Source: Virgibacillus senegalensis
Lineage (GTDB): Bacteria; Bacillota; Bacilli; Bacillales; Amphibacillaceae
Assembly (NCBI RefSeq): GCF_000821245.2
Contig: NZ_LN611424.1
Span: forward strand, 1,009,965-1,073,964
DNA length: 64,000 nucleotides
Direction of reading: 5' to 3'
Shown here: one piece after another, positions 12,748 to 61,620 of the stretch
How positions within the stretch are numbered: position 1 is the first letter of the stretch
Layout of the letters: the number at the start of each line of letters is the position of its first letter
Position numbers and translations under genes: made by a program
Notes under the pieces: generated by a model
Told to the model about the DNA's origin: nothing
The model's input: the letters and a program-made list of their open reading frames with translations, nothing else
The model's database searches: none

Positions 12748-12938
12748 GGGGACAGTCCCTACCACGAGAACTCTTGCATGATTTGCTCTAGTGGAGGACT
12801 TCCGGGGACTGACCCCATTCCACCAATTTGAAGCTTGGAAAAAGAGCGAAATGCTGAAATGGCGGCTTTTTTACAGGAGTGGGGACTGACCCCGGAGCAG
12901 GGTGAATTAGCGTGGAACAGCATTAGGGGACTGACCCC
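12748..12938. repeat. REP-like cluster A (four 13-bp near-palindromes)
   Basis: GGGGACAGTCCCT at 12748-12760 and GGGGACTGACCCC at 12804-12816, 12881-12893 and 12926-12938. The first faces the other three. All lie in the dctP-dctQ gap, so the cluster splits what should be one operon. Confidence 0.85.
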
Positions 12939-18579: not shown

Positions 18580-20601
18580 TTATTTTATTTCCTCTAATGC
18601 TTCGACAGCGCGGTCGACAACAATATGGCTGCCGCCTTGGTCTTTGACGTTCTCCATCATCATCGAGATTAACATATCCTCGTCTTCAGGATAGGTGACA
18701 AACCAGCCATTTTCTTCGCCATCTTCATCATCCAGGCTTTTTTTCAATTCTGCTGTACCCGTTTTACCAGATAAGTTGATGTCTAGTGAGGCTGCACTAT
18801 GAGCCGTTCCGTTTGAAGCGGAGACGACTTTGCGGAGTGCACCACGGATAATAGAGATGTTGTCTTCGCTAACGACGCCTTCTTTCCAAACCTGGCCGTC
18901 TTCTTCGCTTTCCTCCAGGGTCGGCTGGATCATATTACCGTTGTTTAGCAAGGTAGTATAAGCCGCTGCCAAATGCAGGGCGCTCATTTCCAACTGTCCT
19001 TGACCGTAGCTGGTATCGGCCAACATCGCTTCACTATCGATTTTCCCGTTATTGGAAACGGAGGAAGCTTCGATTGGATAGGTGTAAGGGAAGTCCTCCC
19101 CGACTCCAAATTGGTTCAGACCGTCAATCAGATTGTCAGACCCGATTTCCAACGCTTGCTTTGCGAAGTAAATATTATCTGAGCGTACGAGTGCATCCGT
19201 TAAATCGACGGGACTGCCTTCCGAGACACGCGTTACACGATAGTCACCCCAAGATTCATCCTTTTGCCATTTAAGACCATTGATTTCGATTGCCTCATTC
19301 GGATCGATCGCGCCTGCTTCCAGTCCGATTGCCGCAGTGATTGGTTTAATGGAAGAGCCCGGCGCAAAGGTTGCACTGAAACGATTTTGCAGTGGATGCT
19401 GTTCATCATCCTGTAGTTCTTCCAGTCGTGACTGGCTGATTCCATAAGCCAGCTCGTTTGGGTCGAATCCTGGAGCACTCACGAGCGCAAGGGTTTCCCC
19501 AGTTTTTGGCTGGACTACAGCTGCCGTGCCGGACTGGTCTTCATAGGAGTTGTAAATCGATTCCTGAATATCTGCATCGATGGTGACCGTAATATCTTCG
19601 CCATTTTTCACTTCGGTTTGTGTCAGAACCTGGTCTTCTTCTCCATCCTTTGTTACAGCGATGGTTACGCCGGGTTCACCCTTTAGTCTGTCTTCAAACA
19701 ATAATTCCAGGCCGCGTTTTCCAATGATATCACTATTTGAATATTCACCCGGATCGGCTTCCTCTATTTCTTCAGCAGTTACCGAGCCGATATACCCGAC
19801 TAAATGGGAAGCTGCTTCGCCATAGGGATAAACCCTGCCGGTTGTCGTTTGACTTAAAACAGGTCCCAGTTCAAATAGGGCGTCCAATTGTTCCTCGTTC
19901 GTTTTTGGAACTTTTTTCAAAGGAACAAACGAATCATCTTGCACCCATTCTGCTTCCAGTGCTGCATTTATTGTATCGACATCCATTGAAAGCAGATAAG
20001 CTATCTTTTCTTTCGTTTCTTCAGCATCCTCGCCGAATTCCCCTGGGACTACGCCAATTTCATAAATTTCCTCATTTACCGCAAGGCCATTTTCGTTTCG
20101 ATCGAAAATTTCTCCCCGTTCTGGAGATTCTGTTTGAAACGAAATTTCGCCTCCGTCTTTCAACTGCGGAAAAATATAGCCGGGATCCCAATTGACTACC
20201 CAGTCGGTTTCACCTTCGTCATCCTCTGTTTTGTTCAAAGTAGCATCATATTCAAAGGAAATCGGCCCGCCTACCGTATCCATTTCCACGGAGACCGGGA
20301 ATTTAGCCGTCTCATCCTCCTGGCTATTTTCTTCACCTTCCTCCGGTTTCTCATAGCTGACATTTAAATTTTCTACGTTCAAATCGTTATAGATTTTTTC
20401 ATAACGATCAACAAACTCTTCTGTAGGGTAAGCCTCTTTTGATTCAGAGGATGCCATATCGTACATTGCTTTAAAGTCCTGCTCGTTCCAATGGTCGACG
20501 AATTCGTCCATCCGTTCTTCCGGTGTTACTTCATCGTTGGAACAAGCTGATAGGACAGCAATTAATGTCATCATAGCTAGCAAACTATAAATTTTTTTCA
20601 C
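18580..20601 (-). CDS. Class B penicillin-binding protein with MecA-type N-domain (PBP3-like)
   Basis: A transpeptidase that cross-links peptidoglycan outside the membrane, about 673 residues. A lipoprotein-like signal ends in LSAC. Next comes an NTF2-like MecA_N domain (to about residue 140), then the PBP dimerisation domain. The catalytic domain has S-x-x-K in GSSIKP, S-x-N in RSDN and KTG in SGKTGTAE. TTG 20631 and ATG 20610 are in frame, but GTG 20601 has AAAGG 9 nt upstream and gives VKKIYSLLAMM. It resembles Bacillus pbpC. The acidic composition suits a halophile. Confidence 0.9.
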   Translation of the reverse strand: MKKIYSLLAMMTLIAVLSACSNDEVTPEERMDEFVDHWNEQDFKAMYDMASSESKEAYPTEEFVDRYEKIYNDLNVENLNVSYEKPEEGEENSQEDETAKFPVSVEMDTVGGPISFEYDATLNKTEDDEGETDWVVNWDPGYIFPQLKDGGEISFQTESPERGEIFDRNENGLAVNEEIYEIGVVPGEFGEDAEETKEKIAYLLSMDVDTINAALEAEWVQDDSFVPLKKVPKTNEEQLDALFELGPVLSQTTTGRVYPYGEAASHLVGYIGSVTAEEIEEADPGEYSNSDIIGKRGLELLFEDRLKGEPGVTIAVTKDGEEDQVLTQTEVKNGEDITVTIDADIQESIYNSYEDQSGTAAVVQPKTGETLALVSAPGFDPNELAYGISQSRLEELQDDEQHPLQNRFSATFAPGSSIKPITAAIGLEAGAIDPNEAIEINGLKWQKDESWGDYRVTRVSEGSPVDLTDALVRSDNIYFAKQALEIGSDNLIDGLNQFGVGEDFPYTYPIEASSVSNNGKIDSEAMLADTSYGQGQLEMSALHLAAAYTTLLNNGNMIQPTLEESEEDGQVWKEGVVSEDNISIIRGALRKVVSASNGTAHSAASLDINLSGKTGTAELKKSLDDEDGEENGWFVTYPEDEDMLISMMMENVKDQGGSHIVVDRAVEALEEIK

Positions 20602-21137
20602 AGTACCCATCCTTTCTTTATCGTACTTCAAGTAAACAATACAGCCGTACTATCTCGTATGTATTTCTCAACGTTGTACCCGTATGGCCAAAATGAGAAC
20701 AAAGATTGTTCCGTTTTTGAAGACAAAGCTTCATTCTAGTCAAAAGATTCCAACCCCCATTATACCTCAATACCCCAGCTACCGTCTAAACCAGAAACCA
20801 AAAAAACACCAAAAATTTGAAAAAAGAAAAGGTTGAAAAAGAGGATGCAAATCAAGGGGTCAATCAGGGGGTCCAATCAGGGGGTCAGCAATCAGGGGGT
20901 CAGTCCCCAAATTAGAGGAACATAGGAAATGCCAAGAAGAGGGGACAGTCCCTCCTTTTCATAGAATGCTGTAGCGATAGGATTTAGATGAATTTTTGGC
21001 AAGGAAAACTTTTATTTAGGGTGATTTGGGGTCAGTCCCTGAATCAGTCAAAATGTATGGGAATGAGTTTTGAGGGACTGTCCCCGAGTTAAGGCCGGAT
21101 TAACTTCAGGAATAGTGGGTTCGCGTTTCTTCAGTGA
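20602..21137. other. Gene-free interval with tandem repeat and REP-like cluster B
   Basis: The 536-bp gap between two minus-strand genes has no convincing coding frame. It contains tandem copies of AATCAGGGGGTC (20850-20908; the first has one change). Four REP-like units follow: GGGGTCAGTCCCC 20896-20908, GGGGACAGTCCCT 20941-20953, GGGGTCAGTCCCT 21028-21040 and AGGGACTGTCCCC 21073-21085. The PBP promoter must lie in its left part, but I see no clear boxes. Confidence 0.75.
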
Positions 21138-21740
21138 TTAGTCGATTGGGAGGGCTGTAATGATATAGCGCTGTGGGGCGTTTCCTAAATAGGAAAATGG
21201 ATAACAGGTTGTCAGCGTCAATACTTCGTCGGGCGCTGTGGATTTGATTATTGTCCGATCATTAGCATCGACAATTCTGGCACTTTCCATTTGATAGCGA
21301 AACTCTCCATAAGGAAGTTTAACAATAAAAATATCACCGATTTCTACTTCGCCCATTCGTCGGAAAACCGTATCTCTGTGTCCTGATAGTACAATTTGGT
21401 CATTCTCGGTAGGATATGCTGTTCCCTTGTAATGGCCAACTCCTTTTTCCAAATCGTCCGGGTCGGTTCCTTCTACAATTGGCAGCTCCGCACCTATTTT
21501 CGGGATAGCAAGAATTCCGGCAGTTTCTCCTTGCTCCGGAAGATAAGCTGCATCGCCGTGTTGCTTATCAATTATGGTTGGGTTATTTTGTTTCGTTTCA
21601 GAGGAGTTTCTTTCCTTTAATAGTAAATGAGCCTCAGCAAGGCTTTTTTGCTGGGACTGTCCCGTTTGCACTAACTGGATGGCGCCGTATCCTGCTAACA
21701 CTATACCCACTGCCATGATTAGAAACGCTATTTTTTTCAC
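21138..21740 (-). CDS. Class D sortase
   Basis: A membrane-anchored cysteine transpeptidase of about 200 residues. An N-terminal transmembrane helix (VKKIAFLIMAVGIVLAGYG) is followed by a linker and the sortase barrel. The catalytic His lies in LSGHRDTVF, the Cys in TLTTCYPF and the Arg in APQRYII, the class D pattern. GTG 21740 is taken because GAGGG lies 8 nt upstream; ATG 21749 abuts the SD. No LPxTG substrate gene is present in the window, so its target is unknown. An 11-bp REP-like core (GGGACTGTCCC) lies inside the gene. Confidence 0.88.
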   Translation of the reverse strand: MKKIAFLIMAVGIVLAGYGAIQLVQTGQSQQKSLAEAHLLLKERNSSETKQNNPTIIDKQHGDAAYLPEQGETAGILAIPKIGAELPIVEGTDPDDLEKGVGHYKGTAYPTENDQIVLSGHRDTVFRRMGEVEIGDIFIVKLPYGEFRYQMESARIVDANDRTIIKSTAPDEVLTLTTCYPFSYLGNAPQRYIITALPID

Positions 21741-22067
21741 CCGTTCCATCCCTCTTTCAACGTTTTCTCTTCTATATTAATGAACGGTAATCTTGAAATC
21801 TGAAAATCGTTTACATTCAAACTAAATTTATCAGTAATCACTTAGCAAAACAACAGACATTAACCCCTACAATCCGCCAATTTTTATAAGATTGCTAATC
21901 AAATTAGGGCTATTAGCCCGGGAATTTTTACGAAAAAGCAGGGTCTCATTAGATTCCCTCGAATCAAGCAGCATTTTGTCTTAATTATAGTATAAATGAA
22001 TGAGTCTGATTCGCTCTCCTTTACAAAACTAGTAGTTATTAGACAAAAACAACCCATAGGAAATCCA
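21741..22067. other. Gene-free interval upstream of the sortase
   Basis: An AT-rich 327-bp stretch. Short frames here have no SD or family resemblance. It must contain the sortase promoter (minus strand), but no convincing boxes are seen. Confidence 0.5.
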
Positions 22068-22096
22068 TGGAAATTATAGTATATTTTCAATATAAC
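22068..22096 (+). promoter_or_regulatory. Probable sinI promoter
   Basis: TGGAAA (22068-22073), a 17-bp spacer and TATAAC (22091-22096). The start site would fall near 22103, so the transcript would begin almost exactly at the riboswitch aptamer. Confidence 0.45.
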
Positions 22097-22107
22097 ATTG
22101 CTTCTTC

Positions 22108-22192
22108 AGTAAAAGGCAAACTTATTGAAAAATAAGGACGCAAAGCAACAGATCTAAAGCACCTTGGTGCTAGGATGGCTGTGCTGCCTGAC
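22108..22192 (+). promoter_or_regulatory. Cyclic-di-GMP-I (GEMM) riboswitch upstream of sinI
   Basis: The conserved GEMM-I features occur in order: GGCAAAC (22115-22121), the CTTATT-GAAA-AATAAG hairpin with its GNRA loop, GGACGCAAAGC (22136-22146), the tetraloop-receptor strand CTAA followed by hairpin GCACC-TT-GGTGC and TAGG, then a closing TGCC (22185-22188). The aptamer ends about 12 nt before the sinI SD (22201-22206). No T-run terminator lies between them, so control by access to the SD is likely. Recognition rests on memory of the consensus; no covariance model was run. Confidence 0.87.
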
Positions 22193-22214
22193 AGAATATT
22201 GGAGGGTAAACCGT

Positions 22215-22349
22215 ATGTTGAAAACGTTGGACGAAAAAATTCTGGATAGAGATTGGATTCACCTTATGGAAGAAGCAAAGCAGATCGGACTGCAGATTGA
22301 TGAAGTGAAAATATTTTTGTCCAAGCAATCTTCTGTAAATAGCAAATAA
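22215..22349 (+). CDS. sinI: SinI-like antirepressor
   Basis: A 44-residue protein made almost only of the SinI helical hairpin (LDRDWIHLMEEAKQIGLQID). It is homologous in pattern to the C-terminal helices of the SinR encoded 79 bp downstream (LDEDWLELVQDAMESGVSKE). SinI binds SinR and frees biofilm matrix genes from repression. ATG 22215 has GGAGGG 8 nt upstream. The longer frame from 22164 would start inside the riboswitch and is rejected. It sits directly behind the cyclic-di-GMP aptamer. Confidence 0.88.
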   Translation: MLKTLDEKILDRDWIHLMEEAKQIGLQIDEVKIFLSKQSSVNSK

Positions 22350-22395
22350 CTGTGTGGCTTTTACGTGCTTTATATAGAACCATTCGCCTTTCTTG

Positions 22396-22404
22396 TGATA
22401 TAAT
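22396..22404 (+). promoter_or_regulatory. Extended -10 promoter of sinR
   Basis: TG-A-TATAAT (22396-22404), 25 bp before the sinR start, with no good -35. It gives SinR an origin separate from sinI, as in B. subtilis. Confidence 0.55.
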
Positions 22405-22428
22405 CTGGTTGAAAGAAGGTGAATGGCC

Positions 22429-22761
22429 TTGATCGGGGATAAAATCAAACAATTGCGCCAAGAGAAAAAAATGTCCTTATCTGAATTGGCAGAACAAGCT
22501 GGCGTGGCAAAATCATACTTAAGTTCAATAGAAAGAAACCTGCAAACGAATCCTTCTATACAATTTATGGAAAAAGTAGGCGCGGTACTGGGAGTGTCCA
22601 TCAATGAGCTGCTAATGAAAGAAGAAAGCGAAGAAATGAAGAAGCAGCTGGACGAGGATTGGCTGGAGCTCGTTCAAGATGCCATGGAATCCGGAGTTTC
22701 TAAAGAACAATTCAGAGAGTTTCTCGAATTTAATCGTTGGCGAATCAACCAGGATAAATAA
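22429..22761 (+). CDS. sinR: SinR-like biofilm master repressor
   Basis: A 110-residue repressor. Residues 1-60 are an Xre-type helix-turn-helix (IKQLRQEKKMSLSELAEQAG, then VAKSYLSSIERNLQTNPSIQF). The C-terminal helices (about 75-105) form the oligomerisation and SinI-binding domain. In Bacillus it represses the exopolysaccharide and amyloid-fibre operons. ATG 22423 is in frame, but TTG 22429 lies 7 nt after AAGGTG and gives the family N-terminus. A strong terminator follows. Confidence 0.92.
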   Translation: MIGDKIKQLRQEKKMSLSELAEQAGVAKSYLSSIERNLQTNPSIQFMEKVGAVLGVSINELLMKEESEEMKKQLDEDWLELVQDAMESGVSKEQFREFLEFNRWRINQDK

Positions 22762-22780
22762 ATAGTACGAAAAAACCTGG

Positions 22781-22814
22781 ACACCCGGAGGGAAAAACGC
22801 CCTCCGGGTGTTTC
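22781..22814 (+). terminator. Terminator of sinR
   Basis: ACACCCGGAGGG (22781-22792) pairs perfectly with CCCTCCGGGTGT (22800-22811), then TT. Confidence 0.9.
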
Positions 22815-22840
22815 ACGTTATTTGGGCGTGGGAGCAGTTT

Positions 22841-22983
22841 GGGGTCAGTCCCTCATCCTGTTAGCGCTCTAAAGTGTTAAAGCGAGATTTAACAATAGCG
22901 GAAAGCTTCTGGCCCTTTTAATGAGGGGACATGCTAAGATCCACTCCTGAAGATTTTGATAAACAAATCTGGGGACTGACCCC
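22841..22983. repeat. REP-like pair C between sinR and the VanZ-like gene
   Basis: GGGGTCAGTCCCT (22841-22853) faces GGGGACTGACCCC (22971-22983), with 117 bp between. A decayed GGGGACATG lies at 22924. Confidence 0.8.
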
Positions 22984-23054
22984 CACTCTGTTACAGTTGT
23001 AAACGATTCTTTTTGGTATAATGCTAGGTAGGTCAGTGACATGAGGAGATTGGA

Positions 23055-23573
23055 ATGCAGAAGATGAAAAAATGGAGTTATTGGTTATTGCCTATCAGCT
23101 GGATGGTGGTGATTTTTTATGCTTCATCCCAGCCATACGAGGATCAGGATATCAAACCTTTTATGGCCGATTACGTTGATTTGGACTTTTTAGCGCCCTC
23201 ATTAGATGGGATAGTGTTTTCATACCACCATTCGGAGGTTAGTATCCATTCGTTAGGGGTATATGGGTTTGTGGAATTCTTTATAAGAAAAGGAGCACAC
23301 ATGGCTGTGTTCTTCGTGTTACTGCTTTGTTTTTTTACCGCCATTAACAGGACGCTCGATGTTAAGCGCAGAGTGCAAATAATCATTTCCCTTTTTATTA
23401 CAGTTGCATATGCTGCAATAGATGAGTTTCATCAGAGTTTCACTCAGAATAGGACTCCATATGCCGGTGATGTCGTGCTGGATACTTGCGGTGCTATCCT
23501 GGCAATTCTATTTATTTATTTGTTCTATCAGCGAAAAAACAGAAAAATCACAAAAAAAGCTGTAAAATTTTGA
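23055..23573 (+). CDS. VanZ-family membrane protein
   Basis: A 172-residue membrane protein with four hydrophobic helices (about 8-24, 73-92, 102-120, 135-155). VanZ hallmarks are the early FYASSQ motif, RKGAHMAVFFVL and the DEFHQSFTQNRTPYAGDVVLD loop. VanZ-like proteins are linked to low-level teicoplanin resistance and envelope homeostasis; the biochemical role is unknown. The start ATG follows GAGGAG. It is probably transcribed alone. Confidence 0.85.
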   Translation: MQKMKKWSYWLLPISWMVVIFYASSQPYEDQDIKPFMADYVDLDFLAPSLDGIVFSYHHSEVSIHSLGVYGFVEFFIRKGAHMAVFFVLLLCFFTAINRTLDVKRRVQIIISLFITVAYAAIDEFHQSFTQNRTPYAGDVVLDTCGAILAILFIYLFYQRKNRKITKKAVKF

Positions 23574-23699
23574 AAGAAAATCCCCCTTTTTGTTCCAAAA
23601 GATGATATAGTGGAAACAATTATGAAGAAAAACGAATTTGTCAGATGATTCTGTGACTTATATAAAAGCTTAGATTGATAGAAAAAATGAGGTGAAGTA

Positions 23700-23846
23700 A
23701 TGAAAGAGCAAGAGTTATATAAAAGCGTATTATCAAAATTGATTGATAAAACAGAGAACTCTCAAATAAATGATTCCCATGAATTTATCGAGCACTTAAT
23801 CAAGGAATTGAACCAGAATCATGTAGTGAAATCGGAAAATGCCTAA
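23700..23846 (+). CDS. Small hypothetical protein (48 aa)
   Basis: The frame reads MKEQELYKSVLSKLIDKTEN to the end ...VVKSENA with a clear SD (GAGGTGA, 6 nt before ATG) and a strong terminator just after the stop, so it is very likely a real monocistronic gene. It is rich in charged residues and predicted to be helical. No family is recognised. It lies between the VanZ-like gene and the RAYT. Confidence 0.7.
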   Translation: MKEQELYKSVLSKLIDKTENSQINDSHEFIEHLIKELNQNHVVKSENA

Positions 23847-23861
23847 ACGATATAAGAGAAG

Positions 23862-23892
23862 AAGCGTTGAAATTCCAGTCAACGCTTTTTCT
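23862..23892 (+). terminator. Terminator of the small gene
   Basis: AAGCGTTGA-AATTCCAG-TCAACGCTT followed by TTT. Confidence 0.88.
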
Positions 23893-23932
23893 TTGCTTCC
23901 ATACTTTAACACGCTACCACTTTACCATGGTG

Positions 23933-23945
23933 GGGGACTGACCCC
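23933..23945. repeat. REP-like unit upstream of the RAYT gene
   Basis: GGGGACTGACCCC, 95 bp before the transposase start. The adjoining ACCATGGTGGGGGACTG resembles ACCGTGGTGGGGGACTG at 61573-61589, hinting that the mobile unit is longer than 13 bp. Confidence 0.8.
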
Positions 23946-24039
23946 TAAAATATTCTCATTTAGAGATGCTGTTAAAGAGGGTTTTAAGTGATTTTGTCGA
24001 AAGGTTATCTGAAATACTATAAGGAAAGAGGGAATGCTA

Positions 24040-24633
24040 ATGCCGAGAATGTTGAGAGCCTGGGTCCCCGGGGGAACTTATCATATTACGGCCCGGGGAA
24101 ACAGGAAGCAAGTTTTATTTAGGGATGAGGAGGATCTTCACCGATACCTGGAAATTCTCCAATCCGTGAAACAGAAGTATCCTTTTCAGCTACATGCCTA
24201 CTGCCTTATGCCCAATCACATCCATCTCCTCGTGGAAGCCACCGAACAAGCCCCGAGTATGTTTATGAAAATTCTCCATACGAAATATGCTATTTATTTC
24301 AACAGAAAATATGATCTAGTCGGCCACGTTTTTCAGGGAAGATTTCATGCCCACTACATTACTTCAGTACAATATTTTCTCCACGTTTCCCGCTATATTC
24401 ACCTAAATCCATGCGCAGCCAAGATTTGTTCTATCCCTGAACAATATAAGTGGAGCAGTTACAATGAATATATGTTCCCGGAAATGCAAAAAAGAATAGT
24501 AGACCAAGACAGGCTGTTGTCTTATTTTTTTGAACCAAGAAGGTTTCGGTATCATCAGTATGTAAACGATAGAAAAGCCGAAGTAACTGCCTTGGCTCCA
24601 GTATTACCAAGTCCTATTCCTGAGGAAAAGTAA
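24040..24633 (+). CDS. REP-associated tyrosine transposase (RAYT, Y1/HUH)
   Basis: A single-domain HUH nuclease of the IS200/REP-associated type, about 197 residues. The N-terminus WVPGGTYHITARGNRKQVLF, the HUH motif in CLMPNHIHLLVE (about residues 56-66) and the downstream block HVSRYIHLNPCAAKI with FQGRFHAHYI are RAYT signatures. The catalytic Tyr is expected in the helix around VQYFLHVSRYIH. ATG 24040 is chosen because GAGG lies 8 nt upstream. It is flanked by REP-like units at 23933 and 24651/24696 and has no IS ends. It presumably moves these repeats in trans. Confidence 0.9.
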   Translation: MPRMLRAWVPGGTYHITARGNRKQVLFRDEEDLHRYLEILQSVKQKYPFQLHAYCLMPNHIHLLVEATEQAPSMFMKILHTKYAIYFNRKYDLVGHVFQGRFHAHYITSVQYFLHVSRYIHLNPCAAKICSIPEQYKWSSYNEYMFPEMQKRIVDQDRLLSYFFEPRRFRYHQYVNDRKAEVTALAPVLPSPIPEEK

Positions 24634-24650
24634 TTTTTTGTTTTATTTTT

Positions 24651-24708
24651 GGGGACAGTCCCTCTATAATAAGTTTAGTCGAAAATTGTAGTTGGAGGGA
24701 CTGTCCCC
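24651..24708. repeat. REPIN-like inverted pair just after the RAYT gene
   Basis: GGGGACAGTCCCTC (24651-24664) and its exact reverse complement GAGGGACTGTCCCC (24695-24708) are separated by 30 bp. The RNA would form a 14-bp stem, so it may also act as the transcription end of the RAYT gene. This is the cleanest inverted pair in the window. Confidence 0.88.
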
Positions 24709-24720
24709 ACACTAAATAGA

Positions 24721-24773
24721 ATTGGTATAGACATCTATATATTACCGGTGTTATACTTTCTACAGCGTTTTCA
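24721..24773 (+). promoter_or_regulatory. nagE promoter with NagR-type operator and cre-like site
   Basis: TAGACA (24728-24733), an 18-bp spacer and TATACT (24752-24757). TATAGACATCTATA (24726-24739) covers the -35 and differs by one base from the element before nagA (27900-27913), so both are likely NagR operators. TGAAAACGCT on the minus strand (24764-24773) is a cre core, placed just after the -10 for roadblock control by CcpA. Confidence 0.65.
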
Positions 24774-24794
24774 AAATATAGAGGAGTGGAATTA

Positions 24795-26729
24795 ATGCTA
24801 GCGTTTTTACAACGAATTGGTAAATCTTTAATGTTTCCAATCGCTATGCTCCCTGCTGCTGCTCTACTGGTTAGACTGGGTGCTGATGATATGTTGGATA
24901 TCCAGTTTATCAGCCAGGCAGGAAGCGGGATATTAGATAATCTTGCACTTATTTTCGCGATTGGCGTAGCGATGGGCTTCGCTCGTGATGGAAGCGGAGC
25001 TGCCGCCTTGTCAGGTGCAGTAGCATTCCTGGTATTGACTGGCGGTGTCGGAGCCTTTGGTGATGAGTTAGATATGGGCGTATTCGGCGGTATTATCGCC
25101 GGAATTGTTGCTGGTCTGCTTTATAACCGGTATTCCAATATCCAACTCCCGGACTGGTTGGCTTTTTTTGGTGGAAAAAGGTTTGTCCCGATCATCACGG
25201 CAATTGTCATGGTGATCTTATCTGGTATCTTCGGACTCATCTGGCCGCCAATTCAGACAGCGATCAATGGTCTAGGGGAATGGATGCTTGGTGCAGGCGC
25301 CCTTGGGGTCGGAACATATGGCTTTTTCAACCGGCTTTTAATTCCGGTTGGACTCCACCATGTCATCAACACCCTGGTATGGTTTGATTTTGGTTCCTTC
25401 GTACCCGAGGGAGCTTCGGAGCCGGTAAGAGGAGAAATCAATCGTTTCTTGCAAGGAGACCCGTCTGCAGGTACTTTCCTTGCAGGATTCTTCCCGATCA
25501 TGATGTTCGGTCTGCCGGCAGCTTGTCTCGCCATGTATGCCGCTGCTAAAAAGACACGCAGAGCCGCGGTTGGTGGTATGTTATTCAGTATCGGATTTAC
25601 TGCATTTTTGACCGGTGTAACGGAACCAATTGAGTTTTCATTTATGTTCTTGTCTCCACTTTTATATGTGGTACATGCCATACTGACTGGTATCTCTATG
25701 ATCATAGCTTTATGGCTAGATATCCGGCATGGGTTTGGTTTTTCAGCCGGTTTCATTGATTATGTCTTAAATTTCGGTATAGCACAAAATCCAATCATTT
25801 TGTTCATTCAAGGACTGGTCTTTGCGGCTATTTACTTTGTGGTATTCTACGTGTTGATTGTCAAGCTCGATTTGAAGACCCCCGGCCGTGAGGATGAGGA
25901 CGTAGAACATGCCGATGAAAGCGGGATTATCGCTAAAGGCGGTAAGAATTATGATGCTAAGGCTTATCATTATTTACAAGCACTCGGTGGTCCAGAAAAT
26001 ATTAAAAACCTGGACTATTGTGCAACCCGGCTTCGCCTGGAAATGAATAACATGGAGGAAGTCGATGAGAAGGCGCTTAAACGCCAAGGAGCCAATGGTG
26101 TCATGAAACTGAACAAGCGAAATTTACATGTGGTTGTGGGAACTACAGTTGATTTCCTTGCTGAAGCAATGCGTAAACGAATGGAAAACAACAACATGGA
26201 AGCACCGGGAAAAGAAGAGGATGCAGAAATCCCGGCTGAAGAAAGCCAGAGAACAGTAGGAAAACTTGCGAGCAACGATTTTGTTGCTCCTGCATCTGGT
26301 AAGCTAATGGAAATTACAGAAGTGCCGGACGAAGTATTCTCTGAAAAAATGATGGGTGATGGATTTGCAATCGAACCAGAAGACGGCTTGTTTGTTGCCC
26401 CAGTCGATGGCGAAATCATCAACGTCTTCCCGACCAAGCATGCTGTCGGAATTAAAGCTTCCACTGGACATGAAGTGCTGGTCCATGTCGGACTTGATAC
26501 CGTGCAGCTTGGAGGAAAAGGCTTTGAAGTATTTGTAAGCGAAGGGAAGCAAGTGAAAAAAGGGGAAAAACTCCTGAAGGTGGACCTCGGATTCATTAGA
26601 GAAAATGCAGCTTCTGCCATTACCCCTGTCATCTTCACAAACCTCGGAGATAACGAGCAGGTTAGATTACTTCAAAGCGGTACCATTAAAATTGGCCAGG
26701 AAAATATACTTGACTTAAAACAAGAATAA
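24795..26729 (+). CDS. nagE: PTS N-acetylglucosamine-type EIICBA component
   Basis: A fused sugar phosphotransferase permease of 644 residues. The membrane IIC domain spans about 1-360 (MLAFLQRIGKSLMFPIAMLP). The IIB domain follows, with its phospho-Cys in LDYCATRLRLE (about 415). The IIA domain is at the C-terminus, with the phospho-His in EVLVHVGLDTV and DGLFVAPVDGEI before it. It imports and phosphorylates GlcNAc, giving the NagA substrate. GTG 24786 is in frame, but ATG 24795 has the better SD spacing. GlcNAc specificity rests on sequence type and the nearby nagR-nagA-nagB. Confidence 0.88.
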   Translation: MLAFLQRIGKSLMFPIAMLPAAALLVRLGADDMLDIQFISQAGSGILDNLALIFAIGVAMGFARDGSGAAALSGAVAFLVLTGGVGAFGDELDMGVFGGIIAGIVAGLLYNRYSNIQLPDWLAFFGGKRFVPIITAIVMVILSGIFGLIWPPIQTAINGLGEWMLGAGALGVGTYGFFNRLLIPVGLHHVINTLVWFDFGSFVPEGASEPVRGEINRFLQGDPSAGTFLAGFFPIMMFGLPAACLAMYAAAKKTRRAAVGGMLFSIGFTAFLTGVTEPIEFSFMFLSPLLYVVHAILTGISMIIALWLDIRHGFGFSAGFIDYVLNFGIAQNPIILFIQGLVFAAIYFVVFYVLIVKLDLKTPGREDEDVEHADESGIIAKGGKNYDAKAYHYLQALGGPENIKNLDYCATRLRLEMNNMEEVDEKALKRQGANGVMKLNKRNLHVVVGTTVDFLAEAMRKRMENNNMEAPGKEEDAEIPAEESQRTVGKLASNDFVAPASGKLMEITEVPDEVFSEKMMGDGFAIEPEDGLFVAPVDGEIINVFPTKHAVGIKASTGHEVLVHVGLDTVQLGGKGFEVFVSEGKQVKKGEKLLKVDLGFIRENAASAITPVIFTNLGDNEQVRLLQSGTIKIGQENILDLKQE

Positions 26730-26736
26730 CAATCGT

Positions 26737-26771
26737 AAAACCCCAGCTTTAATAAAAGCTGGGGTTTTGTT
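26737..26771 (+). terminator. Terminator of nagE
   Basis: AAAACCCCAGCTTT-AATA-AAAGCTGGGGTTTT, a perfect 14-bp stem. Confidence 0.95.
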
Positions 26772-26806
26772 TGATTCATTGAAGCCAATTTACTAGGAAT
26801 CCCGCC

Positions 26807-27042
26807 GGGGTCAGTCCCCAAAATAACAAAAATGCGAAAAAAGGTGATTGCGGGGACTGACCCCAAACCAAACATAAATAAAAAGAAACCGACTTTGGGG
26901 TCAGTCCCCGATCCGCTTAAATCCACCAATGACAAGGTTTTTATATAAGGGAAGACACGAAAAAGACCGTTTCGGGGACTGACCCCTAAACGGTCTTTTC
27001 TGCACATATGGGCTCTTATGTTAGCGGTAGGGGACTGTCCCC
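26807..27042. repeat. REP-like cluster D (five units) between nagE and nagR
   Basis: Alternating units occur: GGGGTCAGTCCCC 26807-26819, GGGGACTGACCCC 26852-26864, GGGGTCAGTCCCC 26897-26909, GGGGACTGACCCC 26974-26986 and GGGGACTGTCCCC 27030-27042. A half unit, CTGTCCCC, lies at 27052-27059. The first four form two facing pairs spaced 32 and 64 bp apart. The gap has no gene besides. Confidence 0.9.
26961..26999. terminator. Terminator-like hairpin carrying a REP unit in its loop
   Basis: AAAAGACCGTTT (26961-26972) pairs perfectly with AAACGGTCTTTT (26988-26999). The whole loop is one REP-like unit with one base each side. With its A-rich and T-rich arms it could end transcription from either strand, including nagR on the minus strand. 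Confidence 0.7.
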
Positions 27043-27080
27043 TCAAGCGTGCTGTCCCCATCCCACCGTCCCATCCGAGC

Positions 27081-27803
27081 TTAACGGGGCATTTGCAGTT
27101 TGAATTTGTATTTGTCTGCCCGGTAGGCGGATTTGACATATTCGAATGGTTCATCATTGCTTAAGTAGGTGAGACGCTCGATTAACAACACAGGATCACC
27201 TGGTTTAAGCTGTAAGTACTTGATTTCCTTATCATTGGCAAGTGCCGATTCAATTTCCTGATCGGCATGCTTGATGGTATGGCCGAGCGTGTTTTCGATA
27301 TAGTCATAAAACGACGGTGCAAAGTCTTCTCTCGTCATGTTCCCTGCGATTTTCTTCGATGTGTAGATTGTTTCTACTGCCAGCGGTGCTTGATCTGCCA
27401 TCCGAACCCGTTCGATTTTAAAAATCGATTCTCCGATGTCCACTGCCAGATTGGCAGCAAGTTTTTCGTCAGCCTCCATTTCCTCGAAGCGTACAAGCTT
27501 ACTGGAAGGAGTAAGACCCCTAGCCCGCATATCCTCACTGAAGCTGGTCAATCCCTGTAAGTTTTGCTCGAATTTTTTCTCAGCTACAAATGTACCTTTG
27601 CCTTTTTGGCGATACAGCAGCCCTTCAGAGGCCAGGTTGTTAATGGCTTGTCTGACAGTCATCCGGCTGATGTGGTGTTTCTCTGCGTATTCCCGCTCGG
27701 AAGGGAGGAGTTCTCCCGGTTTTAATTGTTCGGTTTCGATCAGGTGTTTGATTTCCTCTTCCAATTGATAATATATAGGTAATGGTGAATTTTTATCGAC
27801 CAT
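27081..27803 (-). CDS. nagR: GntR/HutC-family repressor of GlcNAc use
   Basis: About 240 residues. The N-terminal winged helix (PIYYQLEEEIKHLIETEQLK and SEREYAEKHHISRMTVRQAI) is followed by a UTRA effector domain from about residue 85 (LTSFSEDMRARGLTPSSKLV). In B. subtilis, NagR/YvoA is released from DNA by GlcN-6-P or GlcNAc-6-P. It is divergent from nagA, and the shared interval carries the TATAGACA-type operator also found before nagE. ATG 27803 is chosen because AAAGGAG lies 6 nt upstream; ATG 27809 abuts the SD. Confidence 0.9.
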   Translation of the reverse strand: MVDKNSPLPIYYQLEEEIKHLIETEQLKPGELLPSEREYAEKHHISRMTVRQAINNLASEGLLYRQKGKGTFVAEKKFEQNLQGLTSFSEDMRARGLTPSSKLVRFEEMEADEKLAANLAVDIGESIFKIERVRMADQAPLAVETIYTSKKIAGNMTREDFAPSFYDYIENTLGHTIKHADQEIESALANDKEIKYLQLKPGDPVLLIERLTYLSNDEPFEYVKSAYRADKYKFKLQMPR

Positions 27804-37778: not shown

Positions 37779-38112
37779 TTCCTTCCTCCTTGTTAAATGA
37801 TAATTATAATTCTAACATAAATTGGAAGGTGGCAACCTTTTAATAGCAAATTAGGTGATATATATTCAATTAATTTCTTATGCTAACAAATTAGAAGTTT
37901 AACCTTTACTATAAGGTACAGACCTTCCGAAACTAAAAATCCTGTTTTATCAACATTCCACTTAAAAATGAGAGAGAAAAACCCCTGATTGGGTTCAGTC
38001 CCCTCCCGAGCCAAAATCTCTAATTTCTCTCCAAGGGGGACAGTCCCCGGTTCATGTCTCCGGCTGTTCTGCCATTATTTCTCATTCTCTTGTCACGGTT
38101 CAGGGAGTCATG
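37779..38112. repeat. Interval with REP-like units E
   Basis: A gene-free gap. It holds a degenerate unit GGGTTCAGTCCCC (37991-38003) and GGGGACAGTCCCC (38036-38048), here in the same orientation. The part nearest the DUF4041 gene is AT-rich and must carry its promoter (minus strand). Confidence 0.7.
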
Positions 38113-38121
38113 TGCTATAAT
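38113..38121 (+). promoter_or_regulatory. Extended -10 promoter of yvyF
   Basis: TG-C-TATAAT at 38113-38121, 30 bp before the ATG. A TTGTCA at 38090 is spaced 20 bp, too far for a standard -35. Confidence 0.55.
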
Positions 38122-38151
38122 GTACGAAAAATGCTTTTAGGGGGAACGACG

Positions 38152-38571
38152 ATGGGAGAATTAATGAACTGTCCACGCTGTGATGCATTGTTTGTATCTG
38201 GTGTCCGGTCAATTTGCCAGGATTGCTACAAAGAAGAGGAGCGTGCTTACACGACAGTTTACAATTACCTGCGCCCGAGAAAAAATCGCCAGGCCACTAT
38301 CCCGGAAATTGTAGAAGCTACTGGAGTAGATGAAGAAATTATCTATAAATTTATAAAAGAAAAACGTTTACGGCCATCTCAATTCCCGAATTTGACTTAT
38401 CCATGTGATCGATGCGGGACGATGATATCAGACGGTAATCTCTGTAACAACTGCCTGACAGAGATGCAAGCAGACCTGGACGAACAAAGAAAATTGGATG
38501 AAATCGCCCGACGTAACCAACAGAATGTTCAAGAAGCAAACACATACTATACAGTCGAAAAAAAACAATGA
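38152..38571 (+). CDS. yvyF: Flagellar operon protein YvyF (TIGR03826 type)
   Basis: A 139-residue cytoplasmic protein with two zinc ribbons (NCPRCDALFV with ICQDCY, and CDRCGTMI with CNNC) around a MerR/HTH-like middle (EIVEATGVDEEIIYKFIKEKRL). It precedes flgM in flagellar operons of Bacillaceae. Its role is thought to be regulatory but is unproven. ATG 38152 is chosen over 38110 because AGGGGG lies 7 nt upstream and MGELMNCPRC is the family N-terminus. Confidence 0.9.
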   Translation: MGELMNCPRCDALFVSGVRSICQDCYKEEERAYTTVYNYLRPRKNRQATIPEIVEATGVDEEIIYKFIKEKRLRPSQFPNLTYPCDRCGTMISDGNLCNNCLTEMQADLDEQRKLDEIARRNQQNVQEANTYYTVEKKQ

Positions 38572-38579
38572 CTTTTTAT

Positions 38580-38606
38580 TAAACAATACTGCCCATCTGC
38601 CGATAT
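38580..38606 (+). promoter_or_regulatory. Sigma-D promoter of flgM
   Basis: TAAA (38580-38583), a 15-bp spacer and GCCGATAT (38599-38606): a perfect match to the sigma-D consensus. It gives FlgM feedback expression by the sigma factor it inhibits. Confidence 0.9.
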
Positions 38607-38654
38607 TAAGATTAGAGCATGTACGCCAGTTAACCGTGAAAGGAGTGCAGTGCA

Positions 38655-38924
38655 TTGAAGATTAATGGTACCAATCAAACCAACTTTAATCCGTACCAAA
38701 AACAACTGCAGAAGCAGGCGGAAGTGAAAAAAGAATTGACAAACAAAGAAGATAAAATACAAATCTCGAGCCAGGCAAAACAGCTTCAGGAAACGGCGAA
38801 ACCAGATCCGGCACGGCAGCAGCGAGTACAGGAAATTAAACAGGCAGTAGAATCCGGCGAATATAATATCGATCCAAAACAGACTGCTAAGAAGATGATT
38901 GAATTTTGGAATAATCAAGGCTAG
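38655..38924 (+). CDS. flgM: Anti-sigma-D factor FlgM
   Basis: An 89-residue, largely unstructured protein. Its C-terminal half (RVQEIKQAVESGEYNIDPKQ) is the conserved sigma-binding helix region. It holds sigma-D inactive until the hook is complete. The TTG start has AAAGGAG about 10 nt upstream. The sigma-D promoter in front and flgN 14 bp behind match the Bacillus layout. Confidence 0.93.
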   Translation: MKINGTNQTNFNPYQKQLQKQAEVKKELTNKEDKIQISSQAKQLQETAKPDPARQQRVQEIKQAVESGEYNIDPKQTAKKMIEFWNNQG

Positions 38925-38938
38925 AGGGAGGACATCCG

Positions 38939-39439
38939 ATGTCCGTTCAACCGATCGTGGAATCATTACAGCGTATGATCAAGCTGCATGACAGTTTATT
39001 AACCCTTTCAAAAGAAAAAACAGAGTCGCTGAAATCCGGTGAAACAGATAAGCTGCAAAGTCTGATGCTGCAAGAACGAAAGCATGTGCAGGCAATCAAC
39101 CAGGTTGAGAAGCAGCGTCAGCAGGAAGTGGAAGCATGGGCAATTCAAGCCGGCCTTCGTCCGGAAGAAGCTACTGTATCGGTCATCCTTGACCATTTGG
39201 AGGATGAGCAGGAGAAGATAGATTTAGAAAATCGCTTTTTAAAGCTGACCAATGTGCTGTACGACTTAAAACAGCAAGAGAACCTAAATCAGGATCTAAC
39301 AAGGCAATCCTTACAATTCATTCAAATGTCAATAGATATGATGGATCCTTCCTTGAAAAATATGAATTACGGAAATGCAAAGATCCAGCAGCAGGCATCA
39401 CAATCATCCAAGCGTTCGCTGTTTGATTCAAAAGCGTAG
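38939..39439 (+). CDS. flgN: Flagellar chaperone FlgN
   Basis: A 166-residue helical protein typical of FlgN export chaperones for FlgK and FlgL. Long amphipathic helices run through about residues 1-130 (SLQRMIKLHDSLLTLSKEKT, LQEERKHVQAINQVEKQ-like repeats), with a Gln/Ser-rich tail. GGGAGG precedes the ATG. It is followed directly by flgK. Confidence 0.9.
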   Translation: MSVQPIVESLQRMIKLHDSLLTLSKEKTESLKSGETDKLQSLMLQERKHVQAINQVEKQRQQEVEAWAIQAGLRPEEATVSVILDHLEDEQEKIDLENRFLKLTNVLYDLKQQENLNQDLTRQSLQFIQMSIDMMDPSLKNMNYGNAKIQQQASQSSKRSLFDSKA

Positions 39440-39458
39440 GGAGAGAGGAGTAACAAGT

Positions 39459-40991
39459 GTGAGTTCAACTTTTAACGGATTAGAGGTAGCCAGACGTGCG
39501 CTGACGACCCAGCAATCCGCTTTATATACCACCGGTCATAACATAGCCAATGCGAATACGGAGGGTTTTACCAGACAGCGAGTCAATTTCGAACAGACGG
39601 GTCCATACCCGCCGGCATCTCGAAACAGACCACAGATTCCAGGGCAAGTAGGCAGCGGTGTCCAGGCGGGGTCAATTGAACGGGTCCGTGACCAGTTTTT
39701 GGACAAGCAATACCGAAGCGAGAATGCCAAGTTCGGTTACTATGACTCCAAAGCAAGTGCGATGGAGCAAATGGAATCGATCATGAACGAGCCGTCAGAG
39801 CAAGGGCTGTCGAAAACAATGGATCGTTTTTGGCAATCGCTTCAGGACTTGGCTACCAATAAAGACGAAGGCTCCAGGTCTGTTACGGTGCAACGGGCTA
39901 CTGCGGTTGCTGAGACGTTTAATTATGTTTCCGATTCTTTAAATTCAGAAAGAAGCAATCTGCAGGAAGAAATGAATGTTACGAAAAAGGAGATAAATTC
40001 ATTAGTCAGGCAGATAAACAACCTAAACAAACAAATCGGGGACATTGAACCCCACGGTCTGGTACCTAATGATTTATATGATGAACGAGACAGATGTATA
40101 GATAAGCTCTCCGGCCTTGTGAATATCAATGTTTCCTATGAAAGCAGCGGTGGACAGCCAAACGCGATTGCACAGGGGAAAGCAACTATCACTTTGGCTG
40201 ATGCACAAGGAAAAGATACAGACACCGTCTTGATCGACGCATCATCTGGCGAGTATAAGCAAATGGAAATAGGTCTTGATGATAAACAAAATGTAGAGCA
40301 ATTCAATTTTAAAACCATTGACAAGGATGGCAATGAAACATCGACTGATTCCATTGCTGCGGCTGATTTTTCTTCTCAAGGTAAAATGAAAGCACTCATG
40401 GAATCCAATGGCTACATAGATGGTGGCGAAGCAGTTGGGGAATATCCGGATATGCTGGACGAGTTGAATTTTTTAGCTGAAAACCTAACTGCCGCACTTA
40501 ATGAAGTTCACGCTCAAGGTGTTGATGCCAATGGTGGCCCTGGGCAGGAATTCTTTGTGATTGACGACCCGGAAAATGCTGCCGCATCGATAAAAGTATC
40601 TGAAGCAATTCAAGAAGATAGTGACTTGATTGCTGTCAGTGCCAATGGAGACAGCGGTAATGGGGAAAACGCGCTCGCCATGGCTGAAGCAATGCGTAAG
40701 AAAGGTGTCGGCGAACTGGGAGAAGGTTCGTCGATACAAAGTTACTATGAAGGGGTTATCGGTGAAATGGCCGTGGTTGCTCAGGAAGCCGATCGGATGC
40801 AAAGCAACGCTACGGTACTCAGAGATCAAGTGGATGCAAATAGACAATCGGTCAGTGCCGTATCGCTCGATGAAGAAATGACAAACATGATCAAATTCCA
40901 GCACGCATACAATGCGGCTGCACGGAATATGACGACCGTGGATGAAATGCTTGATCGGATCATCAATAATATGGGATTAGTCGGAAGGTAG
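39459..40991 (+). CDS. flgK: Flagellar hook-associated protein 1
   Basis: HAP1, about 510 residues, forming the first hook-filament junction ring. The conserved N-terminus is SSTFNGLEVARRALTTQQSA with NIANANTEGFTRQRVNFE. The C-terminus has VSAVSLDEEMTNMIKFQHAY and AARNMTTVDEMLDRIINNMG, as in the rod/hook family. The frame opens at 39375 inside flgN, but GTG 39459 follows GAGAGGAG by 8 nt and gives the family start. Confidence 0.96.
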   Translation: MSSTFNGLEVARRALTTQQSALYTTGHNIANANTEGFTRQRVNFEQTGPYPPASRNRPQIPGQVGSGVQAGSIERVRDQFLDKQYRSENAKFGYYDSKASAMEQMESIMNEPSEQGLSKTMDRFWQSLQDLATNKDEGSRSVTVQRATAVAETFNYVSDSLNSERSNLQEEMNVTKKEINSLVRQINNLNKQIGDIEPHGLVPNDLYDERDRCIDKLSGLVNINVSYESSGGQPNAIAQGKATITLADAQGKDTDTVLIDASSGEYKQMEIGLDDKQNVEQFNFKTIDKDGNETSTDSIAAADFSSQGKMKALMESNGYIDGGEAVGEYPDMLDELNFLAENLTAALNEVHAQGVDANGGPGQEFFVIDDPENAAASIKVSEAIQEDSDLIAVSANGDSGNGENALAMAEAMRKKGVGELGEGSSIQSYYEGVIGEMAVVAQEADRMQSNATVLRDQVDANRQSVSAVSLDEEMTNMIKFQHAYNAAARNMTTVDEMLDRIINNMGLVGR

Positions 40992-41001
40992 GTGACTGAA
41001 A

Positions 41002-41871
41002 TTGCGCGTAACACAAGGGATGCTTTCGAATAATATGTTGAAAAACTTAAGCAACAGCTATAATAGTTTAGGGACCTATATGGATCAATTATCGACGGGG
41101 AAAAAGATAAATCGGCCTTCTGATGATCCAGTGGTCGCTATGAAAGGTATGAATTACCGCACGCAAGTGACAGAGATTGAGCAATATCAGCGTAACACAA
41201 GCGAAGTTCATAACTGGATGGACAACTCTGATTCGGCTTTGGATCAAGCTACGCAAGCTCTTCAAAGACTACGGGAATTAGCGGTTCAAGGCAGTAATGG
41301 AACGTATGAAGATGGACAAAGGGAAAACATGGCACAAGAAGTTGATCAATTGCGCGATCATTTGGCTGACATTGCCAATACGAAAGTGAACGGGAAATAT
41401 ATTTTCAATGGTACGAAAACCGATACCCCTCCTGTAATCGATGGTGAAGTCCAGGAGGGTGGTGGAGACGTTCTAGTCGAAGTGGCCAGCGGCACTAAGT
41501 TAAAGGCCAATATTGATGCCGGAGAAGTATTCAGTAGTGACTTGTTCGACGATATTCAAGCTTTCTCTGATGCCTTGAGGTCTGATATACCTGATGAAGA
41601 AATGGGTGCCAATATTTCTTCGCTGGATAATCATATCGACAATGTAGTAAACGAGCGAGCAGATTTAGGTGCACGCATGAACCGGTTAGATCTTATAGAA
41701 GACCGCCTTTCTTCTCAAGAAGTTACAGCTAACAAAATGATGTCAGATAATGAAGACATTGATTTAGAAAAAGTCATCATGAAACTAACCACTCAGGAGA
41801 GTGTTCATAGGGCCGCTCTCAGTGCCGGGTCACGAATTATCCAGCCAACTTTGACAGATTTTCTAAGATAA
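41002..41871 (+). CDS. flgL: Flagellar hook-associated protein 3
   Basis: HAP3, 289 residues, related to flagellin. The N-terminal D0/D1 helices are MRVTQGMLSNNMLKNLSNSY and DQLSTGKKINRPSDDPVVAM. The C-terminal helix is AHRAALSAGSRI-like (TTQESVHRAALSAGSRIIQP). The TTG start is preceded by AGGTGA. It lies 10 bp after flgK. Confidence 0.95.
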   Translation: MRVTQGMLSNNMLKNLSNSYNSLGTYMDQLSTGKKINRPSDDPVVAMKGMNYRTQVTEIEQYQRNTSEVHNWMDNSDSALDQATQALQRLRELAVQGSNGTYEDGQRENMAQEVDQLRDHLADIANTKVNGKYIFNGTKTDTPPVIDGEVQEGGGDVLVEVASGTKLKANIDAGEVFSSDLFDDIQAFSDALRSDIPDEEMGANISSLDNHIDNVVNERADLGARMNRLDLIEDRLSSQEVTANKMMSDNEDIDLEKVIMKLTTQESVHRAALSAGSRIIQPTLTDFLR

Positions 41872-41948
41872 AAATAATTTTGGTGAAAGCACTTGCCCTC
41901 TATATGAGCGGCAAGGCTTTTTACTATGAAGGGAATGGAGGAGCACGT

Positions 41949-42539: not shown

Positions 42540-42552
42540 AAGGATGATGAAT

Positions 42553-43005: not shown

Positions 43006-43007
43006 TG

Positions 43008-43238: not shown

Positions 43239-43262
43239 ACATTATGCAATTCTCTCCGATAA
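43236..43262 (+). promoter_or_regulatory. Sigma-D promoter of hag
   Basis: TAAA (43236-43239), 15 bp, TCCGATAA (43255-43262). One mismatch to the consensus. The -35 overlaps the csrA stop codon. Confidence 0.88.
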
Positions 43263-43284
43263 TATAAATGTACACCAAATGATG

Positions 43285-43356: not shown

Positions 43357-43364
43357 AAATAATA

Positions 43365-54875: not shown

Positions 54876-54880
54876 AAGAG

Positions 54881-61518: not shown

Positions 61519-61620
61519 GGGGACAGTCCCCCGCCGATGTAGAGTGGTAAAGCGGTGTCGCGCTAATACACTACCGTGGTGGGGGACTGTCCCCGAAGCC
61601 TTGCTGTCCCCGAAGCCTTG
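61519..61620. repeat. REP-like pair F with a 17-bp tandem duplication
   Basis: GGGGACAGTCCCC (61519-61531) faces GGGGACTGTCCCC (61582-61594). The segment CTGTCCCCGAAGCCTTG occurs twice head-to-tail (61587-61603 and 61604-61620), so half of the second unit is duplicated. Confidence 0.88.

Follow-up and report, generated by a model that had tools for sequence, protein, structure and literature searches.

The 64,000-nucleotide stretch of Virgibacillus senegalensis DNA analyzed here (the window) encodes an intact REP-associated tyrosine transposase (RAYT) and 22 copies of a short palindrome, members of a family that is spread over the chromosome and that goes with the RAYT gene from genome to genome. 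The sequence-only reading of this DNA had proposed a RAYT with a chromosome-wide cognate palindrome family in a Bacillaceae-like genome, and both the genome counts and the association with RAYT agree with it. The window's islands of palindromes are shared in position among four species, and the spacings between palindromes often fall near multiples of the helical repeat. On the sequence comparisons set out below, we consider it probable that this is an old, vertically inherited, TIRYT-like nuclease with its cognate palindrome, which RAYT would have generated and selection would now hold, probably in helical register.

The RAYT gene and its protein

The RAYT is an HUH-Y1 protein of 199 aa encoded by the intact ORF 24034..24633 on the forward strand. 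A complete single-domain gene starting at 24040, as had been read from the sequence, is borne out by profiles and motifs, with that start being the third codon of the ORF from 24034. The protein passes the NCBIfam profile for REP-associated tyrosine transposases, NF047646 (85.7 bits against a cut-off of 80), and a Pfam search matched it to Y1_Tnp. It also matches the TnpArep structure, chain 4er8, at an E value of 4.8e-7 over residues 7-128. Its HUH motif is H62-I-H64, and Tyr121 lies opposite Y115 of 4er8, which we take to be the catalytic residue. The motifs of the protein read NHIH, FQGRF, RYIHLNP, and WSS; NHIH and YIHLNP supply the HUH and the single tyrosine in Y---NP that characterize RAYT/TnpAREP class 2, and the inverted palindromes beside the gene, recurring genome-wide, supply the flanks typical of that class. 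All 70 RAYT loci examined in the family yield an ORF with the HUH and Y---NP motifs, the ORF having been picked by requiring HUH and, for the last 14 loci, by requiring both.

The window's genome (G000; 3.92 Mb in 8 contigs) holds one copy of the gene when searched with the window's RAYT protein. The closest RAYTs are found in records of Sediminibacillus halophilus and S. terrae. Among four orthologues dN/dS is 0.056-0.106, and the gene is under purifying selection. Synonymous divergence of RAYT is high between G000 and the congeners G122, G123, and G124 (dS of 1.47-1.82) and amounts to 0.37-0.87 among those three. No C-terminal helix-turn-helix (HTH) was recognized in the window's protein, as Pfam at an E value of 0.01 gives Y1_Tnp only; in a 253-aa relative the tail is longer and gives a weak match, under the cut-off, to the sigma-70 family. 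AlphaFold2 run on a three-sequence RAYT alignment returned a mean pLDDT of 36.7, too poor for a fold search.

Two further observations concern related genes. A second PF01797 match in the window's genome (L002, 1471-1707) looks by eye like a fragment of an IS200-type transposase. At L041, the RAYT locus of genome G150, the downstream palindromes are seemingly translated as the C-terminal tail of the protein (GDCPPP..., GDSP), also judged by eye.

Palindromes of the window and the genome

At up to two mismatches, GGGGWCWGWCCCC has 24 matches in the window against 1.88 expected, a number reached by none of 100 shuffles. At up to one mismatch there are exactly 22 units, at the very places where 22 had been reported. 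The two other matches, at 21652 and 27508, carry two mismatches each, look like chance, and were rejected as units. The claim that all units are intergenic also stands, as a greedy set of ORFs of at least 90 aa overlaps with none of the 22. The units are arranged as follows.

12748..12938: island of 4 units, spacings 56, 77, and 45 bp; common to G122-G124, with a remnant in congener G121
20896..21085: island of 4 units, spacings 45, 87, and 45 bp; alignment across species poor
22841..22983: island of 2 units with a spacing of 130 bp (128 bp in G122 and G123)
23933..23945: palindrome GGGGACTGACCCC, upstream flank of RAYT, 88 bp before its start; each of G122, G123, and G124 has a palindrome with no more than one mismatch aligned to it
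24651..24708: downstream flank pair GGGGACAGTCCCT / AGGGACTGTCCCC, 45 bp apart, beginning 17 bp past the RAYT stop codon
26807..27042: island of 5 units, spacings 45, 45, 77, and 56 bp
37991..38048: island of 2 units, 45 bp apart
61519..61594: pair of units 63 bp apart that forms a long hairpin as DNA (z -7.4); linker of the 8-bp TA-step type

The RAYT gene is therefore flanked on both sides by REP-like units, as had been noticed. The first unit of the downstream pair is kept in G122, G123, and G124 and the second is intact only in G122; folded as DNA, the window's pair gives a 58-nt hairpin (z -7.6). The 22.8-kb island is represented in G124 by one unit at one mismatch and one at two.

Over the whole genome the 12-mer GGGGWCWGWCCC gives 163 + 165 matches, a perfect 13-mer being counted on both strands, and its reversed control gives 1. 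When oriented by the core CAGTCCC, the units number 84 GGGGACAGTCCC and 95 GGGGTCAGTCCC, and these 179 units, at least, form 74 islands of 1 to 6 units each. Within 307 kb of the genome, 194 units with at most one mismatch were located, 38 of which overlap ORFs where 154 were expected. The count against shuffled sequence and the mapping to intergenic positions that the sequence-only reading had suggested thus find the palindromes in excess and depleted inside ORFs. A word this short and G+C-rich might raise the thought of chance or of a base-composition artefact, which is hardly credible here: with no shuffle of the window matching its count, and the control at 1 versus 328 in the genome and 55 versus 3342 over the 159 genomes of the family, the shuffles and controls refute it.

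Units in two orientations that usually meet as facing pairs were described in the earlier reading. Among the 104 neighbor pairs under 200 bp there are 47 +-, 16 ++, 26 --, and 15 -+, so that facing is indeed the commonest arrangement but accounts for under half, and spacing is a more regular feature than facing orientation. The best-studied RAYT cases are those of GTAG REPs in proteobacteria. In the window's genome a GTRG head, the canonical GT[AG]G of REPs, lies within 6 bp of 10 of the 194 units against 5.1 expected, and a REP/REPIN system in the classical sense is not what these units form. No clear consensus was seen in the unit flanks.

It is conceivable that the palindromes act as RNA elements, either terminating transcripts or stabilizing mRNA. 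The window's 22 units are all intergenic, and the three facing pairs that were folded as DNA each form strong hairpins (z -5.0 to -7.6), which suits such a role. However, a T tract is absent, 27 of 194 units having TTTT no more than 10 bp away where 22 would be expected, and on this count intrinsic terminators were rejected. Flanks without a consensus, the same spacing in non-facing pairs, and the presence of units in divergent gaps also argue against RNA elements, as does an Rfam scan of 20500-27500, where a riboswitch lying apart from the units is the one match to attain its gathering score. We regard this explanation as very unlikely.

That riboswitch is an observation of its own. It is a full-length c-di-GMP-I riboswitch (Rfam RF01051, 86.8 bits, E value of 1e-16) at 22105-22191 on the forward strand, upstream of a 112-aa helix-turn-helix ORF at 22423-22761 (+), presumably SinR-like. 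It is possible that it serves as a second-messenger switch on this regulator.

Association of RAYT with the palindrome across genomes

Of the 159 genomes in the family, 75 encode a protein like the window's RAYT. Ten or more pattern matches are present in 31 of these 75 versus 2 of the 84 without it (P of 3e-14, kinship of the genomes ignored). In the rest of the order, sampled by 192 genomes, the figures are 53 of 122 with RAYT and 8 of 70 without (P of 2e-8, kinship again ignored). Closer to the window, G122, G123, and G124 each carry RAYT and 263-285 pattern matches, while a RAYT like the window's was not found in G121, which has 3 matches and 2 in the control. Equal numbers of repeats in relatives without RAYT, which would have spoken against the earlier reading, are not what is seen, with 3 matches in G121 against 263-328 in the four congeners that have the gene. 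The correspondence has exceptions in both directions. Palindromes occur where no RAYT was detected in G043 (49 matches), G210 (102), G192 (63), and G267 (32), and some genomes with a RAYT of the NHIH lineage are palindrome-poor, such as G062 (7) and G087 (8). Within the family, the median is 2 pattern matches in genomes whose RAYT falls outside the NHIH lineage.

The sequence of the palindrome also varies with the enzyme. Within 600 bp of 70 family RAYT genes, 17 have the GGGG palindrome, 26 have GTGCCTGTCAC or GTGCCWGGCAC, and 27 have neither; this motif scan covered all 70 loci and an inverted-repeat search 56 of them. Genes flanked by GTGCCTGTCAC or GTGCCWGGCAC fall almost entirely (25 of 26) in one clade of 36 proteins with a support of 100/100, and the GGGG palindrome is spread over several RAYT clades, with 8 changes on the tree. 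Palindrome labels as a whole require 13 changes on the RAYT tree versus 32.5 in shuffles, none of 200 being as low; this tree holds 70 RAYTs, roughly half of the listed loci, taken largely in order of match quality, with flanks scanned to 600 bp. A second word, the 16-mer GGGGAGTGACAGGCAC, is present in 34 of the 159 genomes at up to 58 matches per genome, with a control of 0 in all 159, and is found in 19 of the 36 genomes of the GTGCCTGTCAC clade versus 15 of the 123 others. The clade-specific palindrome, the labels on the tree, and the association among genomes all point to a palindrome that follows the enzyme. As an association, it is shown that the palindromes go with RAYT and that their sequence changes with the RAYT clade.

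Some variation was seen beside individual genes. GTGCCTGTCAC stands next to the RAYTs of L055, L058, L141, L147, and others, where it is often followed by TCCCC. In the clade of 250-270-aa RAYTs, outer arms GGGACA...TGTCCC adjoin the same GGGG core (L171, L174).

Palindromes are also concentrated around the gene. With the 600-bp flanks of the gene itself excluded, they are 7- to 92-fold enriched within about 10 kb of RAYT in 12 of 13 genomes, with Poisson values that count most units twice, once on each strand. Six of these genomes (the window's, G011, G016, G068, G069, and G150) were known beforehand to show local clusters; of the seven chosen with no prior knowledge beyond the gene's flanks, six are enriched and G095 is not (P of 0.43). 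In the window's genome, units are as dense within 10 kb at 152 of 20,000 random places and at 10 of the 74 island neighborhoods.

Age and conservation of the islands

Each of the window's eight island positions is occupied in G122, G123, and G124 as well, and the corresponding 70-72 kb of these three genomes showed no additional island of units with at most one mismatch. Where the islands are aligned, palindrome columns are 86-88% identical and the other island columns 51-55%. A unit with at most one mismatch is aligned with 16 of the 22 window units in G122, 15 in G123, and 13 in G124, the losses being partly a matter of gap placement.

In G121, RAYT and its palindromes are absent between conserved flanks. 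One island position of that genome has a unit with a decayed partner 44 bp on, which is the sole remnant pair in the matching 72 kb; the six other stretches, which correspond to the other seven islands, contain no unit at up to three mismatches, and a four-mismatch word is present in two of them. This remnant pair suggests that G121 lost the system rather than that the others gained it. Taken together, the shared island positions, the dS values of RAYT, the conservation of the palindromes, and the probable loss in G121 point to an old system that is kept where RAYT is kept. The sequence-only reading had pictured a working or recently working system, which is hard to reconcile with eight of eight island positions common to three congeners and none extra in 70-72 kb. 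Instead, the conserved system looks old and unlike a mobile element that is spreading recently.

Two blocks of the window, at about 38067-47666 and 50891-55731, are 92-95% identical to G124, where most of the window is at about 80-86%, which suggests recent exchange between the window's species and G124.

Conservation of this kind, along with quantized spacing, could be produced by a host protein. The palindromes might be sites of a nucleoid or regulatory DNA-binding protein that are palindromic by chance, with RAYT either the maker of the first copies or irrelevant today. Islands occur alike in tandem (38 of 104), divergent (12 of 32), and convergent (8 of 24) gaps of at least 100 bp, which would also fit such sites. 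Against this, both the number and the sequence of the palindromes track RAYT, and G121, having no RAYT, retains just the one remnant pair in its matching 72 kb. A host protein of this sort is in our view an unlikely explanation.

Spacing and linkers

Of the 104 neighbor spacings under 200 bp, 52 are 45-48 bp, 13 are 55-56 bp, 7 are 76-79 bp, and 5 are 23 bp, with rarer classes at 87-88 bp (5), 122-123 bp (5), and 30-32 bp (4). Over two genomes the spacings lie near 23, 45, 56, 77, 88, 99-100, 112, 122, and 133 bp. Non-facing pairs share the spacing of facing pairs, and several of the longer gaps contain a decayed unit by eye. In the window's genome, spacings have a period of 10.75-11 bp (R of 0.80, n = 44) that none of 3000 jittered sets equals, in a test that excluded spacings of 43-48 bp and of 122 bp or more and from which linkers of the TA kind had been removed by eye beforehand. 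The same test on 100 of the 137 units of G122, with no sorting of linkers and all spacings of 15-140 bp, gave an R of 0.67 at a period of 11.0 (n = 42), again with 0 of 3000 jittered sets as high. When each spacing class is counted once, 33 of 4000 jittered sets reach the observed value if a class must occur two or more times, and 1541 of 4000 do so when singletons are included, a weakening that arises because many spacings may share ancestry. Phasing near multiples of about 11 bp is therefore strong if the spacings are independent and weak if a class counts once. In looped DNA of E. coli the in vivo helical repeat is near 11 bp. The rule is not a general one, since other genera have other spacings, namely 39 and 47 bp in G150 and 31-36 bp in G101.

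The 20.9-kb island differs in spacing between species. In the congeners its spacings are 55-57, 77-78, and 55-57 bp, for units with at most two mismatches (56-77-56 in G124). Across the four species, units 2 and 4 are 132-135 bp apart, and units 1 and 3 are displaced by about one turn.

The linkers between units are of two kinds. Twenty 33-nt linkers have a pairwise identity of 27.7%, as for unrelated DNA. Of the nine 47-bp pairs in the window's genome, seven are joined by 34-nt linkers that are related to one another and carry TA at positions 9 and 25, and the linkers of the other two are plainly unrelated; the identity comparison covered twenty of the 33-nt linkers and seven of the nine 34-nt ones, two of the seven being near-copies of each other. 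The linker of the 61.5-kb pair is similar to this 34-nt TA kind. In G150, spacings of 39 or 47 bp and related linkers characterize 17 of the 23 pairs examined, several of them near RAYT, and the other six have spacings of 21, 35, 38, 46, 46, and 80 bp. The transition-to-transversion ratio is 2.3 in 12 26-nt G150 linkers and 0.45 in unrelated linkers. Watson-Crick covariation was not found inside the G150 linkers: at four position pairs compared across 12 of them, 19 Watson-Crick pairs were counted and shuffles gave 24.4. The kind of pair with TA linkers looks like a true REPIN and the 45-46-bp kind does not. As a separate observation, the 26- or 34-nt linkers of G150 (e.g., L123, L127-L129, and L135), and also the window's pair at 61519-61594, have TA steps at 8-bp multiples and keep a purine/pyrimidine skeleton, their base changes being for the most part transitions.

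Another reading, along the lines of the sequence-only one, is an ordinary mobile population, in which RAYT recently drove, or still drives, REPINs or MITEs whose positions and spacings are merely inherited from earlier copies. The related linkers in seven of nine 47-bp pairs and in the 39- and 47-bp pairs of G150, the strong hairpins of the three folded pairs, and the association of RAYT with the palindrome across genomes would all be expected of it. However, none of the four species has an island of its own in the 64 kb, for units with at most one mismatch, the 33-nt linkers that were tested are unrelated, and the GTAG head is absent. Recent or continuing mobility seems to us improbable.

Proposed explanation

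The reading that we prefer starts from a single-copy TIRYT-type HUH-Y1 nuclease with motifs like those of subclass 2.1, an enzyme that would have been inherited vertically together with its cognate 13-bp palindrome. By analogy with TnpAREP, RAYT probably recognizes the palindrome as a GGGG-loop-CCCC hairpin in single-stranded DNA. Long ago it may have multiplied the palindrome, at first near its own gene. Today the sites would be kept on one face of the helix and read by a protein, either RAYT itself or a partner, and units would at times be exchanged for others about one helical turn away. This one-turn turnover is drawn from the 20.9-kb island, in which units 1 and 3 are displaced by one turn and units 2 and 4 stay fixed (132 versus 132-135 bp). 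Both the binding of the palindrome by RAYT and a host function are what we infer from these patterns. Alternatively, copying driven by RAYT could keep the palindromes alike in place of selection.

A bolder form of the old-nuclease explanation has a domesticated TIRYT as the keeper of chromosome-wide, helically phased duplex sites, where the palindromes are immobile, turnover proceeds one turn at a time, and linkers drift freely. We put this forward tentatively and think it rather doubtful. What is surprising is the phased, immobile arrays, a reading drawn from sequence comparison. Palindromes fixed in place with quantized spacing in one genus make a host function directly testable.

Comparison with known systems

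The window's RAYT resembles IS200/IS605 transposases in belonging to the Y1_Tnp family by profile. It differs in scoring far under the cut-off of NF033573 (26.1 versus 55 bits) and in being present as one copy; no tnpB-like neighbor was noticed by eye in the window's ORF list. With TnpAREP/RAYT systems it shares an HUH-Y1 enzyme, inverted palindromes flanking the gene, and intergenic pairs and clusters (PMC2817692, PMC3116915, PMC8266576). REPs concentrated near the rayt gene are likewise described for Thauera (PMC2817692) and Marinomonas (PMC8266576). The exact function of RAYT is called unknown in PMC8049555.

Relative to GTAG REPs and REPINs, the window's system is without a GT[AG]G head, has a nearly symmetric 13-mer, main-pair linkers that are unrelated, and spacing near multiples of 11 bp, and has, in a comparison of four species over 64 kb, no island confined to one of them. 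As regards REPINs, 47 of 104 pairs are facing, seven 34-nt linkers are related and twenty 33-nt linkers are not, and private islands number zero in the four-species comparison of those 64 kb. Among the papers listed in literature searches, none describes, to judge by title or the opening of the abstract, palindrome arrays of such a kind in Bacillota.

By its motifs and its end motif, the nearest published kind resembled by the system is TIRYT, or subclass 2.1, with the reservation that the C-terminal HTH was not recognized. Subclass 2.1 of TnpAY1, which corresponds to Bertels group 1 in Table 1 of Quentin et al. 2018 (PMC6006769), is the second largest after the IS200 type according to that paper. 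Its motifs are given there as NHVH or NH[YF]H, W[EQ] or FQ, YIELNP or Y[IV]HLNP, and SS (PMC6006769); those of the window's RAYT correspond, with NHIH having I for V/Y/F, in a comparison made with Table 1 and not with an HMM. The protein has the NHxH, FQ, YIHLNP, and SS of TIRYTs and TIRtrons, and its flanking inverted repeats GGGGACAG and GGGGTCAG fit GGGGWSAS, which the TIRYT flanking repeats often contain according to Di Nocera et al. 2013 (PMC3733652). Some of those repeats recur in the genome (PMC3733652), just as the window's repeats occur elsewhere in dimers and groups. Subclass 2.1 TIRYTs are said to have a C-terminal HTH, unlike the window's protein.

Two differences bear on what the system means. 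Quentin et al. 2018 found no REP-like sequences beside subclass 2.1 genes (PMC6006769), whereas here a protein with subclass 2.1 motifs is accompanied by a matching genome-wide palindrome. Di Nocera et al. saw no obvious correlation between TIRYT genes and repeat families (PMC3733652), and among the window's relatives both a correlation of gene and palindrome and a clade-specific palindrome are seen. To these TIRYT reports the present comparison, by its sequence evidence, appears to add the gene-palindrome correlation, the clade-specific palindrome, and the conserved spaced arrays.
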